Positions 6,208 to 29,018 of a stretch of 35,286 bases of DNA are shown here, one piece after another. The notes beneath the pieces are model-generated. The model was not told where the DNA came from, did no database searches, and saw only the letters and a program-made list of their open reading frames with translations. This DNA comes from a virus, in IMG/VR virus record IMGVR_UViG_3300032309_000989, positions 1-35,286 of that record; one strand, written 5' to 3'. A program made the position numbers and the translations under genes. Position 1 is the first letter of the stretch. Every line of letters starts with the position of its first letter.

Positions 6208-8850
6208 TCAATCTGCTATTGCAATTTCATTGCTGTAATCGTATCCAGCAATCTCTTCGATTTTTTCGGCGGAATAATCATCCTGGCCTTGATCCTTTTC
6301 CAATGATTCTAAGTCAAACAAATCAGGAATGCTAATTTCTGCTTCCATCGCAGCGCACCATCCTGCGCCGTCCGCAAAGTATGATTTGTTAAGTTCAAAC
6401 GCTATTCCTTTACGTTTGAATTTCATGGCACGATATGGCACTGTCATAATCCCACCGAACGGGTCAAATACCGTTTCGCCCTTGTTGGTGAATTGCAAAA
6501 TGCAACGGTCAACAATGTCGAATTGCAAGGGGCAAAGGTGCATTTCTTGACCTTTACTGTGTTGTTGAGAGTTCAGGGTCATCATGCGCGTTACATCCGT
6601 CCAGACTTCCTCGCTCCATGATTGCGGGTGAAGAAGCATAAATCCAGTGGGAAGCATTTGCATTTCGTCGCACCATTGCGCACAAGCAACGTGATTTTCT
6701 AAGCTGTAAATCTGCGTCTCTGAGTGCCTCTTAAAAAGCTGATAGATTTCAGCGTGGCTCAAGCCCTCTAAGTCTGACTTTTTCAACAAACGATTTCCGC
6801 TCGACCTTGTGAAACCTTGCGCATCTGCTTGCCAGCGTGATCTTGCGTATTTCTGTTTCGACTTGATAACAGGCTCATCAGCGTAGCCCTTTGTCGAATC
6901 AGTCTGAGGCTTGCGAAACATGAGCAAGTATTCTGGCATTCCAACGCCCATTTTCGTGCCGTCCTTACATTGCTCCGTCCATCCTAAACGGTATGTCTGC
7001 GCGTTTTCCCTAACAACGTCGGTCACAATTGTTTTCATTCCCATGTATGCAAATCCATGCTTCAAGAAATGATTCATCGTGTGCATGTGAAACGGGTAAA
7101 CTGTTTGGAATCCTAGGCCCGTCATGCCGCCAGGAATAATCCTGTCCTTTACGTGGATGCAGGCCAGTCGTCCCGGCTTCAATGCTCGCAGCAAGTTGGG
7201 AGTTAAAAAATCCATCTGGTCAAAGAACTCCTCGTTGCCCTCGCTATGTCCAAAATCAGCGTAGTTGGGGCTGTATTCGTATTGAGTTGAGAAAGGTATG
7301 GATGTGACAATCAAATCGACACTGTTTTCTGGCAATGTCGCCGTCTCAATAACTGTATCATTGTTAACGATGCGGTAATGCTCGCCTTGAATTTCTACTC
7401 GATCCATGCCCATGCCTCGCGCTAATGTCCCCGCCATCGCTTGCGCTGATAGCCCAAATGTCTTAATAATTTCGCTCATTTTTTTAGTTAGTTTTTCATG
7501 TTGCTGCCATTTTCTTTCGAGTTGTTGGCGAACTCCTCTTTCTGCTTCGGAAAAGATAATATCGACACGCACGGGTTTCTTTTGCCCGAAACGCTGAACC
7601 CGGTGAATTGCTTGGATGAAATCATTAAACTTGAACCCGATTCCAAGAAAAATTGACCAGTGGCAATGTCTTTGAAAATTGCACCCGCTCCCAGCAATGC
7701 GCGGTTTTGTTGAAAGTTCAGCATATTCCCCGTTAGAGAAATCAATGATTAGCTTCTCTCTAATTTCTAATTCCTGTGTTCCAAAAACCGCTTTCGATTG
7801 TGGAATTGCTTGTTGAATTGCGTGGCGCTCATCTTCTAAATCGTGCCAGATGAGAACGTGATCGTCTGGAAACTCATTGCGAATCTCTAGCATTTTTTCG
7901 ACTCTCTTTGTAAGCGATTCTCGCTTTTCACGGCTAGCGTCTTGGATTCCGATAGCTGCGTCTTTTAGCAGTTTTCCTTGCCCTAGCTTATCGTATCCAG
8001 CATTTTTATGATCCGTCTGAACTTCATGCCAGCGCACTTGCAATGGAGGCATTGAATATCCTTCATCCGAAAATCCAAGGTCGCTTGGCCGTTGCACAAA
8101 TAGCGCCCAACTGCTGACCCATAACCAGAACTCTTCTTCTTTGTGAGCATGCAATGTCAGCTTGTCCGCCTTCGTGCTATCGCGCTTGAAAAAACGCGTT
8201 TTTGCTTGTGACACATCCATGATGCCCAAGAAATCAGCGTAAGCCAAAAGCTCAATGTAATCGTTAGGTGATGGCGTGGCCGTTGCTACAAATCGAAATT
8301 GCACGGTTTTTCCGTCTTTGCGATGATTGCGGCTAGGGCCACCATCTCCGGTAAATAGTCGCATGAACTCTCGAAAGGTCTTACTGCCGCCAAATCCGCG
8401 CAAGACACTAGCCTCGTCAAGTGTTGCAACTGTAAATTCAGCTGGATCAAGTTTTCCGTCACGGATCGTTTCATAATTTGTCATGTAAATTCCGTTCGGG
8501 TCTGTAGCCTCTTCGATTCTGCGAATGAATTTAGGTGCTTGCTCCCATTTAAGAATCTGGATGCTGTCCCGCACAAACTCTTGCCTCACTCCTAACGGTA
8601 TGACAATCAATCCCATGCCGCTGGAAATTTCTCTTGTGATGCGAACGGCTTCAAGTTGTATGATCGACTTGCCAAGTCCGAAACTGGCAAAGCAAGCTCG
8701 TCTGCCTCCTTTTACCATCCATTCGACAATCGCTTTTTGATGAGGTTTTAGAATCGGATTAATGCCGCTTGCTTGTATCTCATGCCCTTGCTCTTTTTCA
8801 ATCTTGATTTTTGATTGTAAAAATTTTTCGTATTCCGTTTGTATTTTCAT
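6208..8850 (-). CDS. SNF2-type helicase fused to DNA methyltransferase
   Basis: An 880-aa fusion. The N-terminal half is a superfamily 2 ATPase: Walker A SFGLGKS (56-62), DEAS box (145-148), motif III-like TATPSPNDY (about 190-198) and motif VI QAIHRVQRFGQ (413-423). The C-terminal half is a beta-type amino methyltransferase with catalytic motif IV TSIPFST (516-522) and, later, SAM-binding motif I FDPFGG (795-800). This circular order (IV before I) is typical of N4-C/N6-A methylases. Known phage relatives are helicase-methylase fusions thought to modify phage DNA against host restriction; the helicase may move the enzyme along or expose DNA. Motif IV reads SIPF rather than SPPF. ATG at 8850 follows AAAACAACT, without a Shine-Dalgarno. 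A hairpin (GCCGC..GCGGC) lies about 25 nt upstream. Confidence 0.85.
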   Translation of the reverse strand: MKIQTEYEKFLQSKIKIEKEQGHEIQASGINPILKPHQKAIVEWMVKGGRRACFASFGLGKSIIQLEAVRITREISSGMGLIVIPLGVRQEFVRDSIQILKWEQAPKFIRRIEEATDPNGIYMTNYETIRDGKLDPAEFTVATLDEASVLRGFGGSKTFREFMRLFTGDGGPSRNHRKDGKTVQFRFVATATPSPNDYIELLAYADFLGIMDVSQAKTRFFKRDSTKADKLTLHAHKEEEFWLWVSSWALFVQRPSDLGFSDEGYSMPPLQVRWHEVQTDHKNAGYDKLGQGKLLKDAAIGIQDASREKRESLTKRVEKMLEIRNEFPDDHVLIWHDLEDERHAIQQAIPQSKAVFGTQELEIREKLIIDFSNGEYAELSTKPRIAGSGCNFQRHCHWSIFLGIGFKFNDFIQAIHRVQRFGQKKPVRVDIIFSEAERGVRQQLERKWQQHEKLTKKMSEIIKTFGLSAQAMAGTLARGMGMDRVEIQGEHYRIVNNDTVIETATLPENSVDLIVTSIPFSTQYEYSPNYADFGHSEGNEEFFDQMDFLTPNLLRALKPGRLACIHVKDRIIPGGMTGLGFQTVYPFHMHTMNHFLKHGFAYMGMKTIVTDVVRENAQTYRLGWTEQCKDGTKMGVGMPEYLLMFRKPQTDSTKGYADEPVIKSKQKYARSRWQADAQGFTRSSGNRLLKKSDLEGLSHAEIYQLFKRHSETQIYSLENHVACAQWCDEMQMLPTGFMLLHPQSWSEEVWTDVTRMMTLNSQQHSKGQEMHLCPLQFDIVDRCILQFTNKGETVFDPFGGIMTVPYRAMKFKRKGIAFELNKSYFADGAGWCAAMEAEISIPDLFDLESLEKDQGQDDYSAEKIEEIAGYDYSNEIAIAD

Positions 8851-10904: not shown

Positions 10905-11686
10905 GGCTCATCAGCTCCTTCCTGTTGTGTTGCGTCGAGGATGACCGTGGCGGCGTTTTCCGGCGTTTCCGGTGTCGATAGCGCAAACGGGTTGATCGGC
11001 GGCTGTGGAAGCGGCGTAACGTTTCTAAACTCCGTTGCCTCATCGCGCCGGATAACGTCTTGGATTTCCGGTGACAACGGTAGCCACTTGGAAGCGCGGC
11101 GGAACACTGTCTTTTTTGCCATTTCGTCAAAGTCCGTCGCCCAGGGCCCGGAGCTTCCAGCGCGTGATCGTTTGCGGATCGCCTCGCATTCGTCACGGGT
11201 CATAACTTCGCTTTTTTCGGTGCCGTCCTTGAAGGTGATCAGCACATAATAAGCGTAGCTGTTGCCGCGTGGTGCTTTGTAATCGACAACGTGCTTTTCG
11301 ATCTTGCCGCGATTGCTGACAAACTGGTCATTTTCGCAAACCTTGTCGGCGTGAATGCTACTTACCGTGCCGCTGCGCATGACAAGCTCGGCAATGCCTT
11401 TGTAGTCCAGAATCAAGGTGCATTCCTTGCCGTAAGGGATCAAGTGCGCCCTGCGTCCGTCCGGTTCGATTCCAAGTGCGGACAAGTCAAGCAGGCATTT
11501 CATGAAGCTCTCCGGTGTGCATTCTTGCAGCTTCGGAGTCCTGGTCAGTGCCGTTATCGCCACCCGTGCGAATCGGTCTGCGTTAAGATGTTTTGGCAAG
11601 GCAAGGGCAAATTGCGCCTTGACGTTTTCTTCCGACAGCAAGCCTTTCAACGTGCGCGGTTTCTTTGTTTCGGTAATTTCGTTCAT
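10901..11686 (-). CDS. recT: RecT-family single-strand annealing protein
   Basis: 261 aa. The core ALPKHLNADRFARVAITALT (28-47), LLDLSALGIEPDGRRAHLIP and LILDYKGIAELVMRSG are diagnostic of RecT/Bet-type annealing proteins; KKTVFRRASKWLPLSPE is the usual C-terminal core. It coats 3' single strands and pairs them with complementary DNA, working with the YqaJ exonuclease encoded two genes downstream and the SSB-like protein encoded upstream. The C-terminal tail (from about 220) is P/E/T-rich and flexible. ATG at 11686 lies in the context AAAAACACTATG. Confidence 0.9.
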   Translation of the reverse strand: MNEITETKKPRTLKGLLSEENVKAQFALALPKHLNADRFARVAITALTRTPKLQECTPESFMKCLLDLSALGIEPDGRRAHLIPYGKECTLILDYKGIAELVMRSGTVSSIHADKVCENDQFVSNRGKIEKHVVDYKAPRGNSYAYYVLITFKDGTEKSEVMTRDECEAIRKRSRAGSSGPWATDFDEMAKKTVFRRASKWLPLSPEIQDVIRRDEATEFRNVTPLPQPPINPFALSTPETPENAATVILDATQQEGADEP

Positions 11687-13563: not shown

Positions 13564-13598
13564 TTTGGTTTATTTTGGTAAAATTATGCGCGTTGCAG
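13564..13598 (-). repeat. 35-bp direct repeat, copy 2 (leader of 75-aa gene)
   Basis: Second copy of the leader repeat; the single difference changes the ATG used by the RHH gene into ATA, so here translation starts further on at 13543 after an A/C-rich stretch. Confidence 0.75.
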
Positions 13599-13614
13599 TC
13601 GCGCCCCTGTTTTG

Positions 13615-13870: not shown

Positions 13871-14167
13871 TTAAAAATTTACTGATGGAGCTGTGATTGT
13901 AGTTGGCTGATTGTATCCGTGCACAATAATTTCCGCTCCTTCTTCAACATTGTATTGATTGACCAGCTCTTGTGCCGCTTCATTGTCGCTATCACCGGAG
14001 GCTCCGACAATGTAAACATTTCCGGCGAAGCATTGCCAAACTCCGCGCATTTGACGATGGCGAATGTTGATCTTTCCTTTGGATGGTAGCGGTAGGCGCG
14101 TCGTGGTCATGCGCTCATCATAGTGTTTTTTTGATTGTTGTAAATATCTTTTTTCATAATTCTTCAT
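13871..14167 (-). CDS. Hypothetical protein, 98 aa, first gene of the early block
   Basis: MKNYEKRYLQQSKKHYDERM, then strands KGKINIRHRQMRGVWQCFAG and NVYIVGASGDSDNEAAQELV, ending ITAPSVNF. The body looks like a small alpha/beta domain. An alternative start is the internal ATG at 14110 (MTTTRLPLPSK). It is the first gene after the structured 14.2-14.8 kb region and so the likely first target of any control there. No family recognised. Confidence 0.55.
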   Translation of the reverse strand: MKNYEKRYLQQSKKHYDERMTTTRLPLPSKGKINIRHRQMRGVWQCFAGNVYIVGASGDSDNEAAQELVNQYNVEEGAEIIVHGYNQPTTITAPSVNF

Positions 14168-14235
14168 TTTTCTTTATTCTACAAGGATTCCACGGCGAAA
14201 AAATAGTTGCTTTTTTCTGAGAATATGGCATTTTT

Positions 14236-14294
14236 CTGTTGTTCACCGCTACAACCGTGTGACAACAGATTTTCGCTAGGTGTCAAAGCCTAGC
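14236..14294. other. Two hairpins next to the terminator, one with a kissing loop
   Basis: Hairpin 14236-14268 has a 10-bp stem with one bulged base (CTGTTG..TCAC / GTGACAACAG) and loop CGCTACAACCGT. Hairpin 14275-14294 is GCTAGG-TGTCAAAG-CCTAGC. The loop sequence GCTACAACC (14248-14256) is exactly complementary to GGTTGTAGC (14311-14319) in the terminator loop. Confidence 0.65.
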
Positions 14295-14333
14295 AAAAAA
14301 GCCGTTCAGTGGTTGTAGCCTGAACGGCTTTTT
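14295..14333. terminator. Strong bidirectional intrinsic terminator
   Basis: GCCGTTCAG (14301-14309) and CTGAACGGC (14320-14328) form a perfect 9-bp stem around a 10-nt loop. AAAAAA precedes and TTTTT follows it, so the minus-strand transcript ends in TTTTTT. It separates the late operon from the early one. Its loop is complementary to the loop of the hairpin at 14236-14268. Confidence 0.85.
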
Positions 14334-14779
14334 CCTTTTGTAACCACTGGACAAGTCACATAGCAAGCCATGAGTCCGATGATGCAAGTTGGATAGTGCC
14401 GCTGGTTACAATGGGGAAAAGTTCACCGCGACTTTTCTGAAATAGTATGTGACTTCTCATTCGTTTGATTCCGCCTTACAGCTACAGCCCACGGATAGAA
14501 TGAGATGCGATTGAAAAATCGTTGCGATCTGGTTATGCGAACTCGTTTATGAGGAAGTAACAAGTAAGACAGTCTGAGCCTAACAATTAGGCGGATTGTC
14601 TTTCGGTTGTCGAATCTGTTTGTAGGAAGATTACAAGTGTTGATCCTGATTGAATACCATTTTGTTAGCGTCAACAATATGGTCAAAAACATCGCTAATC
14701 GTTGTAAATGACAGTCAACTCGCCAAGAATGACGAAAGTCAGCACAAAACGCCGGTAAGTTGTTTTTTTTGCCTACTTA

Positions 14780-15793
14780 TCAATGCACCTTGCCGTTGAT
14801 AATCATCAAATTGTATAACGAAAAATTGCCATCGGCCTGCATGTCCTGAATGGCAAATCCATGCGTCCAGTTGTTCGAGATTGCATACTCGGGCGAAAGG
14901 TCACAAAGACAGCCGGTAGTCCAGCAGCTTGTAACTTTCTTGTCACTCGCGCTTATGATGCCGATAGCGTCGGTATAATTCGAGTGCTGGTGAAAGTGGC
15001 CGCAGATGCTGGTCGTCCTCAGTCTGTCATATAACCGCTTGGCAGCACATACCGGATTGGCAAGTCCCTTTGGAAGCTCATGGCCGTGTAAGACTAGCAA
15101 GTTGCCGCTTTTGATGACCTGCTTGGATCTCACAACTTTGATCTTTAGCTCATCCAACTTCAACAAAGACTCAAGAGAACATTCCGGCACGTCGAGCAAC
15201 AACGGTGCGTTTTTCTTTAGGTATTGCTCCAGGCGGTCGTCGTGGTTGCCAAACTTAAAGTAAATGTCAGCCTTCGGGAACGCTGAGCGTATCATTGCAA
15301 TGCCTTCCCGGCACGTTTGAAGCTCGTGCTGTAGGTTTCTCCGGCGTGGATCCGGCTCCCATCTCGAAACGCCGTAGTTTTCGATGGTGTCGCCGTTGAG
15401 GATGACGGTATCGCATTCTTCTTTGTAGCCGTGTTCCAAAGCCACCATCAGCGCGGCCTCGTCGTGGAATGGGAAGTGGATGTCTGACAGAATCAGCACC
15501 TTGCGCTTGCCGGAAATGACAACTGGTTCCGTCACTTCAGCCGTCGATTTCGGCATGAGACTTTGCCACGGCGTGTCGCGGATGAACCTGGGGACTGGAG
15601 AAACGCCCGTCCCTTCGTATGTTTTTTCCCCGACGTTTCCTAGCGCGCCACGAATTGCTCGAACCATTGTCCTAGCGTTTTCGATAGATGTAAACAATGC
15701 CGGATATGACTGGTGCAATTTCTTTGCCATCATGTGATTAGAAACGTTCGGCATTCGATCCATTTCTTCCATTGCAATTTCTTTTTTTGTCAT
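14780..15793 (-). CDS. Calcineurin-like metallophosphoesterase with N-terminal helical domain
   Basis: 337 aa. All metal-binding motifs are present: SDIHFP (D104, H106), NGDTIEN (D135), FGNHDDRLE (N183, H184), VLHGHE (H236) and GHFHQH (H266, H268). The enzyme should hydrolyse phosphoester bonds in nucleotides, nucleic acid or phosphoprotein; the phage substrate is unknown. The first 60 residues (MTKKEIAMEEMDRMPNVSNH...) look like a helix-turn-helix-type extension. It follows the lysis block and is the last gene before the structured intergenic region. Confidence 0.85.
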   Translation of the reverse strand: MTKKEIAMEEMDRMPNVSNHMMAKKLHQSYPALFTSIENARTMVRAIRGALGNVGEKTYEGTGVSPVPRFIRDTPWQSLMPKSTAEVTEPVVISGKRKVLILSDIHFPFHDEAALMVALEHGYKEECDTVILNGDTIENYGVSRWEPDPRRRNLQHELQTCREGIAMIRSAFPKADIYFKFGNHDDRLEQYLKKNAPLLLDVPECSLESLLKLDELKIKVVRSKQVIKSGNLLVLHGHELPKGLANPVCAAKRLYDRLRTTSICGHFHQHSNYTDAIGIISASDKKVTSCWTTGCLCDLSPEYAISNNWTHGFAIQDMQADGNFSLYNLMIINGKVH

Positions 15794-26714: not shown

Positions 26715-26796
26715 GTTTTCGGAATATTAGATCGTAGTTGTTTTTGTATTTTGCGTGATCGACTGGTCTCGGTGTGTCTCCTTTTCCTGCGCTCAT
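26620..26796 (-). CDS. Small KGDxPRPV-type phage protein, 58 aa
   Basis: MSAGKGDTPRPVDHAKYKNN, then YDLIFRKHENPTQ. K-G-D-x-P-R-P-V-[DN]-x-x-x-[YF]-x-x-[NQ]-[FY]-[DE]-x-I-F is a highly conserved short phage peptide signature whose role is unknown. The ATG at 26796 overlaps the stop of the large fusion gene (ATGA), and the last 95 nt overlap the glycosyltransferase start in another frame. The C-terminal part is basic and low in complexity, as expected when two genes share DNA; other members are often only about 25-50 aa. Confidence 0.65.
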   Translation of the reverse strand: MSAGKGDTPRPVDHAKYKNNYDLIFRKHENPTQHPNTDDSKQKRTTRKALRKNSKADR

Positions 26797-29018
26797 TTCC
26801 GTTTCCAGTAGTTGTTATGCGTCACAAGCTCCCATCCGTTAACGTCGGAATGTTCCTTGACCGCTTTTGATACTTCGCCCCAAGTCCAATCGTGTCCGGA
26901 AAAAATACCGTCTGGTTTTATTTTTGAATACCATGCCGCAAGGTCTTTGACAACCGAGTCGTAATCGTGCGCCGCGTCAATCCAAACGCCTGCAAGTGAA
27001 CTATCTCCAAACGCGCTTTTTGCTTCCGCGCTGTTTTGGCAAAGTGCCGTAATCATGCCGTCCACTTTTGCCGCTTTGATGTTGGCAAGGAATTGTTTTA
27101 AGATGCTTCCGCCGTGCGCTTCGACTATTGCAACGTGCGCCGGCTGATTCTTTTCGCCTTCCCATGTGTCAACGCAAACCAGATTCACGCCGTGCTTGCC
27201 AATGTCCTGCAATCGTTGAGCAAGGTAAATAATTGACTTTCCAAGCCAACTGCCAATTTCGACAAACGTATCGCCGTCGTTCAGGTTTTTGGCGATGTTG
27301 TCGTAATGATCCCGGTAGTCGAGCCAGCCGTGAATGTCTTCACTGACGGCGATTCCGTCGTTGATTCTTTGCATGATTCCTTGCCCCATGCGATAACGGT
27401 AATCCTCGTTTGACCTAGCATAGATTTCATCCATCGGAGCTTTGCCAAAAACCGGGTGTAAATGCTCGAAAACAATGTCCCGCGCTTCGATAATAACGTC
27501 GTCGTCATACGCTTTTTTCGTAAAATAGTCATCGGAATACACGCTGAAAAACTCAGGATGGAACATGAATCCTTGCTGCTGGTAACGCTTGCGCGTCAGG
27601 ATTGCCATGCACAACAGATTGTCTGTCCGGTGTCCATCGCTAATGGCTAGCACCTTTGATTTGCTAGTGTCGCCGATAGCGTTCAGAATGATTTCATCCC
27701 AATGCATAGGCGGATCCCAATCGTCGGAAAGCTGAATCAATACTTGCCCTTGCGCCTTTTCTGCCGCCGCGTTCCATGCCGCCACGCTTCCCGCGCTTCC
27801 ATTTGTGACAACGTGGTTGTGAACTGACAACAACGCGCCGTGAATGTCGTCCGAGTCTAGCCCGAAAATGTGCTCGATTGCGTCGGGATTCTTGGCTTTG
27901 TTAAACCACAAACGCCTTGCTTCGACAGCTTGCTTGCATCGTCCGCGTGTGGCGTGAATGAGCGAAATTTTTGCTCCGCTGCGGATAAAATGGTTTGTTT
28001 CCACCGCGTCAGCCTGGTCGTGAAATCCGTTTGCCCGTAGTGCCATGCCGTGCAGTTGATATCCGAGATATTTGCTGTATTTCTTGCGGACGTTCCACGC
28101 GCTAGAACCACCGTCCTGCGCCATCATTGCCGTTGTAATGGCTAGTGCTTCCTTGTCGCGTCCGAGGCCGATGTAGCACAAACAAAGCTCACCGTATGCC
28201 TCCTTGCGCGAGGGATCGACAGACAACGCTTGCAGGTTCATTTGCAAGCGGATATCCACATTGTCGGCCATCTGCCCGGCGGCAATGAAAAGCTCGTATT
28301 TCTCTGCCGTGCCGATATTCTCGTCGTTGCTTTTCAGCAGTTCACAAACGACGGTTGCCGCTTCGTTGATTCTACCGACAGCGCGGAGTGATTGAAACAT
28401 GTGGAATCGTTGCGAAACAGTAGGGTGTTCGATGCTTTCAAGAATGCAAAGATTTCTTTCGTCGTTGCGCTTCCGTGTGCCTTCCGGCCTGTGCAGAATG
28501 ACCGCGCCGTTGACGGTTGCTAGCTTCGGTTCATTGTGAAATTGCAGAAACTCATGGATTGGCGATGTCCATACGGCGCGTCCTTTGCGAATGATCCTTT
28601 CCCGATTGACAGTCAATTGATCTTCCGGCACGTGGTAAGCAAACTGGATGCCGTCGAAATCCTCTGGCAATAAATCAATCGTTTCACGGATGCGCTTAAT
28701 TGACTCAGGATCGATCACGTCGTCAGTGTCGGCCCACATAATCAATTCATGCGCGGCGTTGTCAAAAGACTGCTGGCGAGCTGCTGCGAAGTTGTCAACG
28801 TGTGGCCAAAAGCAACTGTCTATGTCATTGCAATACTCAAGTGCAATTTTTGCACCTAGTGATTCCGCAATTTCTACGGTTTTGTCAGGCTTTTGATTGC
28901 CGATAGCTCGGACAATTACAATCTCATCAGCCAGCGGCTTGAAGGATTCAATAAAACGGGCAATGTAGTTTTCCACATTGCCCACGATAACGCACAAACT
29001 CAGCTTTTCATTTTTCAT
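26793..29018 (-). CDS. Glycosyltransferase-TPR-glycosyltransferase-methyltransferase fusion
   Basis: 741 aa with four parts. Residues 1-170: GT2-like (LSLCVIVGNVENYIARFIES, DxD site WADTDDVID at 95-103). About 180-320: helical TPR-like repeats (EAYGELCLCYIGLGRDKEAL). About 350-520: second GT-A-like domain (KISLIHATRGRCKQAVEARR, and QLSDDWDPPMHWDEIIL as metal site). About 570-741: class I SAM methyltransferase (GDTFVEIGSWLGKSIIYLAQ, then WIDAAHDYDSVVKDLAAWYS; GHDW near the end). It likely builds and methylates a glycan. Its place right after the capsid gene suggests a virion or capsid target. The ATG at 29018 follows an A-rich leader without a Shine-Dalgarno. Confidence 0.8.
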   Translation of the reverse strand: MKNEKLSLCVIVGNVENYIARFIESFKPLADEIVIVRAIGNQKPDKTVEIAESLGAKIALEYCNDIDSCFWPHVDNFAAARQQSFDNAAHELIMWADTDDVIDPESIKRIRETIDLLPEDFDGIQFAYHVPEDQLTVNRERIIRKGRAVWTSPIHEFLQFHNEPKLATVNGAVILHRPEGTRKRNDERNLCILESIEHPTVSQRFHMFQSLRAVGRINEAATVVCELLKSNDENIGTAEKYELFIAAGQMADNVDIRLQMNLQALSVDPSRKEAYGELCLCYIGLGRDKEALAITTAMMAQDGGSSAWNVRKKYSKYLGYQLHGMALRANGFHDQADAVETNHFIRSGAKISLIHATRGRCKQAVEARRLWFNKAKNPDAIEHIFGLDSDDIHGALLSVHNHVVTNGSAGSVAAWNAAAEKAQGQVLIQLSDDWDPPMHWDEIILNAIGDTSKSKVLAISDGHRTDNLLCMAILTRKRYQQQGFMFHPEFFSVYSDDYFTKKAYDDDVIIEARDIVFEHLHPVFGKAPMDEIYARSNEDYRYRMGQGIMQRINDGIAVSEDIHGWLDYRDHYDNIAKNLNDGDTFVEIGSWLGKSIIYLAQRLQDIGKHGVNLVCVDTWEGEKNQPAHVAIVEAHGGSILKQFLANIKAAKVDGMITALCQNSAEAKSAFGDSSLAGVWIDAAHDYDSVVKDLAAWYSKIKPDGIFSGHDWTWGEVSKAVKEHSDVNGWELVTHNNYWKRK

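Follow-up and report, generated by a model that had tools for sequence, protein, structure and literature searches.

A predicted kissing-loop RNA element with a terminator-like hairpin at a phage early-late gene junction and in the leaders of phage replication-initiator genes

Three hairpins (A, B and C) follow one another between the late and the early genes of a phage represented by a 35,286-base IMG/VR virus record, and the question they raise is whether they act together as one RNA and what such an RNA would do. The whole record, here called the window, was analysed. All genes of the window that can be named lie on the minus strand. The terminase, portal and major head protein genes are followed by a metallophosphoesterase gene (14780-15793), the A-B-C junction and the early genes, which encode RecT, a YqaJ/RecE-type exonuclease, a DnaC-like loader and a helicase. 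This order resembles that of the Verrucomicrobia phage P8625, and the large terminases of the two are distantly related (23%); a Verrucomicrobiota host is therefore possible, but it has not been shown. Beside the major head protein gene, a minus-strand gene (26793-29018) encodes a 741-aa protein whose first part matches glycosyltransferase families and which matches a DNA methyltransferase family near its end. An 880-aa protein (6208-8850, minus strand) matches DNA helicase families, with DNA methyltransferase families in its second half. A GC-rich hairpin, GCGCGACTGCAACGCGC, is found just before a gene at 13588-13604 and recurs in the related loci L004 and L007 near 11.4-11.6 kb; the sequence after it is similar in the relatives (ATAATTTTACCACAATGAACC or close).

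The first-pass annotation had described tandem hairpins A and B and a terminator-like hairpin C, with loops in A and C that are perfect reverse complements. Their placement is correct (span 14236-14328; Table 1), and the complementarity is exact over 9 nt. Extra closing pairs are possible in both loops and would leave loops of exactly 7 nt, CUACAAC and GUUGUAG. The 105-nt stretch has a predicted folding energy of -45.9 kcal/mol (z = -7.8), which was equalled by none of 200 shuffles, and on either strand a T-run follows hairpin C (AAAAAGCCGTTCAG / CTGAACGGCTTTTT). No tRNA or tmRNA was found. Each of the two 9-mers (GCTACAACC, GGTTGTAGC) is single-copy in the record. Kissing pairs were sought with an energy-based hairpin scan: both hairpins had to be stable (dG <= -8) and no more than 120 nt from each other, and their loops had to match over 7 nt or more. 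A/C was the only pair of the window to pass, on either strand. In 120 dinucleotide-shuffled versions of the window, 7-nt pairs arose fourteen times and 8-nt pairs twice, but a 9-nt pair never did. The view that a 9-nt loop match is unlikely to arise by chance is borne out by these shuffles and by the compensatory loops of the relatives described below.

Table 1. Positions of the hairpins, loop segments, flanks and early promoter at the junction (window coordinates)
Feature	Position	Strand	Remarks
Sigma-70-like early promoter, TTTACA-16-TATGAT	14117-14144	-	Divergent from A-B-C; consensus match only
Left flank	14165-14235		95.8% identical in L003; includes early-operon promoter-associated element (minus strand)
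Hairpin A	14236-14268	+	Interrupted stem CTGTTGT..CAC / GTG..ACAACAG; apical loop CGCTACAACC
Loop-A segment, GCTACAACC / GCUACAACC	14248-14256	+	Exact reverse complement of 14311-14319; compensatory change in L003
Hairpin B (linker)	14275-14294	+	Different hairpin at L003 counterpart, by inspection
Hairpin C, intrinsic-terminator-like	14301-14328	+	Loop TGGTTGTAGC; full inverted repeat 14296-14333
Loop-C segment, GGTTGTAGC / GGUUGUAGC	14311-14319	+	Pairs with loop A; L003 counterpart GGUAAGAG pairs with CUCUUACC
Right flank	14334-14640		98.0% identical in L003; apparently non-coding; no significant own structure

The nearest phage, L003, is a single contig that contains the whole junction. On this comparison the A-B-C cassette varies much more than the DNA on either side of it, whether through rapid change or through exchange: the flanks are 95.8-98.0% identical in the two phages, whereas the cassette is 63.5% identical and the apical part of C only 41%. 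The L003 loops, CUCUUACC and GGUAAGAG, differ from those of the window, yet they are complementary to each other, and three positions of the 7-nt loop core are changed on both sides. Hairpin A is kept despite its differing stem and loop sequence, and by inspection all three hairpins can be formed in L003 with other stems. Homologues that lose the complementarity without compensation had been named as the finding that would refute the kissing pair; in L003 the flanks are retained and the changes in the two loops compensate for each other. The predicted best fold of L003 is an alternative long A-C helix, so that a refolding switch, which rests on the folding model, is not excluded in this phage.

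The 307 bases at 14334-14640 are 98% identical to L003, against about 87% across the wider aligned DNA, and this conservation is unexplained. A large pseudoknotted RNA was considered for this flank and dropped, since the flank folds like shuffles (z -1.1 and -0.7) and its crossing helices were matched by 20 of 100 shuffles. An 89-aa minus-strand ORF (14423-14692) was also rejected; it has no family match, and by inspection of alignment A1 the substitutions are not biased to third positions. We found no kissing element in the relatives L002, L004, L005, L007 and L040. L005 retains 44 nt of the conserved flank (11135-11178) at 98% identity and then diverges, with the element absent and an ORF that reads like an HNH endonuclease after the retained segment. 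Short tandem repeats, TAGGGTTAGCA and TAGGGTTTGAC, lie directly after the phosphoesterase gene in L002 (2290-2380) and L004 (11010-11150), both of which lack the kissing element. Upstream of the early-gene promoters, the window has a conserved minus-strand element, ATCCTTGTAGAATAA..GAAAAT (14160-14190), which is also present in L003 (11607), twice in L004 (11242 and 11856) and in L007 (11058); it is probably a promoter module common to these phages.

The same hairpin scan, applied to other loci, flagged two distant relatives by phosphoesterase, L032 and L033, in which a gene is directly preceded by hairpin A, a small hairpin and a terminator-like hairpin C. The N-terminal domain of the encoded protein is of the Lin1244 type, and the protein matches replication initiators of phages. 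A protein search gave 73 loci, 72 of which were counted. The element stands upstream of the Lin1244-type gene in 71 of these 72, and the sole exception is L136, where no element was seen by eye. In 58 of the 71 element-bearing loci it lies at most 130 nt from the start codon, and when upstream regions were read without selection the element recurred repeatedly. The leaders share one architecture, hairpin A, a linker and hairpin C with a T-run, and the T-run is retained in L003 as well as in the type I and type II leaders defined below. A promoter-like TAnnTTTG or similar motif is found just before hairpin A in most of the leaders inspected, and the A and C loops are spaced by 51 to 63 nt. All element-bearing relatives are uncultivated contigs. 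The element was absent from the isolates P8625 and Flavobacterium phage 1/32 and from the part of Porphyromonas phage005b that was scanned for structure. Sequence matches of the region and the leaders to the phage collection were short chance pieces only, and the region had no sequence match in plasmids. A match in a Ferrovum bin (L121) has only 25 nt in common and is unrelated.

A covariation search in related phages had been proposed as a check of the A-C contact, and a separate set of about 70 leaders gives strong loop-loop covariation. In the type I leaders (alignment A3, 32 sequences) the loop helix is 96.5% paired, with three pairs changed on both sides (in 10, 8 and 2 sequences), and stem A contains nine covarying pairs. 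The whole type I structure is 97.5% paired, against 36-47% in slid controls. In the type II leaders (A4, 16 sequences) the loop helix is 100% paired and five of its eight pairs are changed on both sides, while slid controls of the whole structure reach 25-48%; the unsupervised RNAalifold consensus fold of type II is the loop-loop helix itself. Sequences entered A3 and A4 on the strength of complementary loops, so that the fraction paired is inflated, and the count over all loci (71/72) limits this selection bias without removing it. Nine different loop pairs occur in the leaders, all of them complementary. With the window and L003 included, 10 of 11 loop pairs follow the rule GU-N3/4-AG versus CU-N3/4-AC. 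Cognate loop duplexes have an average energy of -12.9 kcal/mol versus -2.8 kcal/mol for non-cognate ones, among which 9 of 110 are fairly strong. On a quick tree of the replication gene with many open forks, the loop type changes at least 20 times, and a minimum of 8 switches between types I and II is needed; pairs of phages with more than 95% identical genes bear different cassettes. As far as sequence comparison can decide, the maintenance of loop-loop pairing by compensatory changes is strongly supported.

The window meets the leader architecture, with A, a linker, a terminator-like C with a T-run and loops complementary over 7-9 nt, and its loops CUACAAC/GUUGUAG obey the leader loop rule. 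No replication-initiator gene follows its element on the plus strand, and no TAnnTTTG-type promoter was found by inspection upstream of its hairpin A. The window's copy thus resembles the leaders in structure; common descent is not shown, because the type I and type II leader covariance models R1 and R2 gave no match to the window. Searches with the Rfam 15 families at the gathering cut-off gave no match for the window or 16 related loci, and the best sub-threshold matches were at chance level.

The first-pass annotation had spoken of a minus-strand RNA. The strand is better read as plus, a reading favoured by the order A-B-C-T-run and by wobble pairs. In the leaders the strand is fixed by the promoter-like motif, the gene and the T-run. 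In the window, hairpin A precedes terminator C on the plus strand only, and in stem C of L003 a G-U pair of the plus strand corresponds to A-C on the minus strand. For type I, stem A shows 10 G-U versus 3 A-C cells, and the wobble count of type I stem C (14 vs 14) is uninformative. The evidence for the plus strand is modest, and transcription is inferred, as there are no transcript data.

We propose that the element is a plus-strand RNA of about 100 nt, in which hairpin A, linker hairpin B and terminator-like hairpin C with its T-run would be joined by base pairing of loop A with loop C (kissing, 7-9 bp). Hairpin B is probably a spacer, since it is not evident in the type II leaders. The pairing in RNA, already suspected from the window and supported by L003 and the roughly 70 leaders, is the best-supported step; we regard it as highly probable, in the absence of probing data. 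Three roles had been suggested for the loops. Control of the terminator fits best, because C is terminator-like with a T-run in every case; stabilisation of a small RNA remains possible; neither an origin nor a loop contact in single-stranded DNA found support. Docking of loop A on the terminator loop may set how often RNA polymerase stops at C, an inference from the layout. In the relatives, the element between the promoter-like motif and the replication-initiator gene is inferred to be a leader attenuator, and attenuation is the most likely function there because the terminator-like hairpin that contains the partner loop sits at a replication gene. In the window it may be a stand-alone terminated RNA, since no plus-strand gene follows hairpin C, either insulating the early-late junction or acting in trans; hairpin C could insulate late from early transcription. 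Taken as a whole, a kissing regulatory RNA that is an attenuator in the relatives and stand-alone in the window seems to us a probable explanation, held without great assurance, with its function and the direction of docking inferred. The link from docking to termination is only a guess, because kissing alone does not open the terminator stem. It is not known whether docking takes place within one RNA or between two, and what effect it has on termination.

The closest parallel is the attenuator of plasmid pT181, in which repC is the replication initiator. The repC leader has a first hairpin, a downstream intrinsic terminator and a kissing contact that sets specificity (PMC4878617), features that recur in the replication-initiator leaders of the relatives. 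In pT181 the kissing partner is a separate antisense RNA, whereas here it is the terminator's own loop. In pT181, formation of the terminator stem is also contested by an antiterminator arm. An alternative pairing of the A and C arms is predicted in L003 and visible in the window (GTTCA/TGAAC); judged by eye it does not extend to the leaders in general, and conservation of such an arm was not evident. A terminator-like hairpin in the leader of a replication-initiator gene, as in pT181, occurs in 58 of the 71 relatives at no more than 130 nt from that gene; the window, where no plus-strand gene follows hairpin C, lacks this placement.

The alternative that survives best is recognition in trans, in which a terminated RNA would pair with a second copy, its A loop with the other's C loop and its C loop with the other's A loop. 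A resident phage would then silence the same-type leader of a superinfecting phage, and the cassettes would be specificity types, much as in plasmid incompatibility or P1/P4 c4-type immunity. The c4 antisense RNA of P1/P4-like phages is a small phage RNA with immunity-type specificity. It is listed as RF01695 (PMC2864571); it differs from the present element in structure and genes, and its Rfam model matched neither the window nor the 16 related loci. In favour of recognition in trans, loop types change often and are swapped between phages with similar flanks and near-identical genes, cognate pairs are strong and non-cognate ones mostly weak, and loop variants decide compatibility in kissing-controlled plasmids (PMC10724649). 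The gene-less stand-alone copy of the window is also easiest to understand in trans. However, intramolecular loop pairing would mask the loops, no experiment exists, and compensatory drift with recombination could yield the same pattern. We consider this alternative unlikely, though still a possibility.

Control of translation, in which pairing of the first and third hairpin loops would expose or hide the start region of the replication gene, is proposed by analogy with the ColIb-P9 repZ leader and is improbable. In the repZ leaders of the I-complex plasmids (ColIb-P9/IncB), a long-range pseudoknot is formed and loop variants of the antisense RNA decide compatibility (PMC10724649, PMC9977716). 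The likeness lies in the loop-based long-range pairing in a replication-initiator leader; in most leaders only a short distance separates the end of C from the start codon, and the downstream gene is a replication initiator. Unlike the present element, the repZ system, in which translation is controlled and blocked by the antisense RNA, has no terminator T-run. Against control of translation, C is immediately followed by a T-run, as terminators typically are, and the window's copy has no gene to translate.

It is very unlikely that the loops are inverted DNA half-sites of a repressor whose location in hairpin loops is secondary. An inverted repeat would covary if one protein of changing specificity bound both copies, but the complementarity is confined, or nearly so, to the loops, the stem that carries the A loop shows covariation of its own, and the spacing varies (51 to 63 nt). 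The packaging RNA of phi29 has complementary loops in two hairpins of one RNA, and by this principle an architectural RNA might multimerise through intermolecular A-C contacts. In phi29 the loops of separate RNA molecules make contact, in the service of DNA packaging, whereas the window carries an ordinary large terminase and the element of the relatives stands at the replication gene and not at packaging genes, which leaves this analogy hardly credible. An ordinary bidirectional terminator with a chance loop match, in which C alone would insulate late from early genes, is practically untenable, being contradicted by the absence of a 9-nt match from the shuffles and by the compensatory loops of L003 and nine leader loop types.

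The element apparently represents an undescribed RNA; no description was found in literature searches, whose coverage left out preprints and most subscription papers. It is near-universal at one phage replication gene among the sampled loci, its loop-loop contact shows unusually clear covariation, and it unites an intrinsic terminator and a kissing partner within one RNA. Its loop types form a naturally occurring collection of pairs that are largely orthogonal, and selection for specificity is suggested by how often cassettes are exchanged. That the loop types are self/non-self specificities is an inference. A phage RNA code of this kind, by which a resident would shut the replication leader of a same-type superinfector and stand-alone copies would act purely in trans, is a doubtful and speculative extension; if true, it would consist of exchangeable hairpin cassettes with matched loop pairs in about a dozen largely orthogonal types. 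The finding raises a testable question, namely whether these phages use RNA loops for the control of replication or for mutual exclusion.
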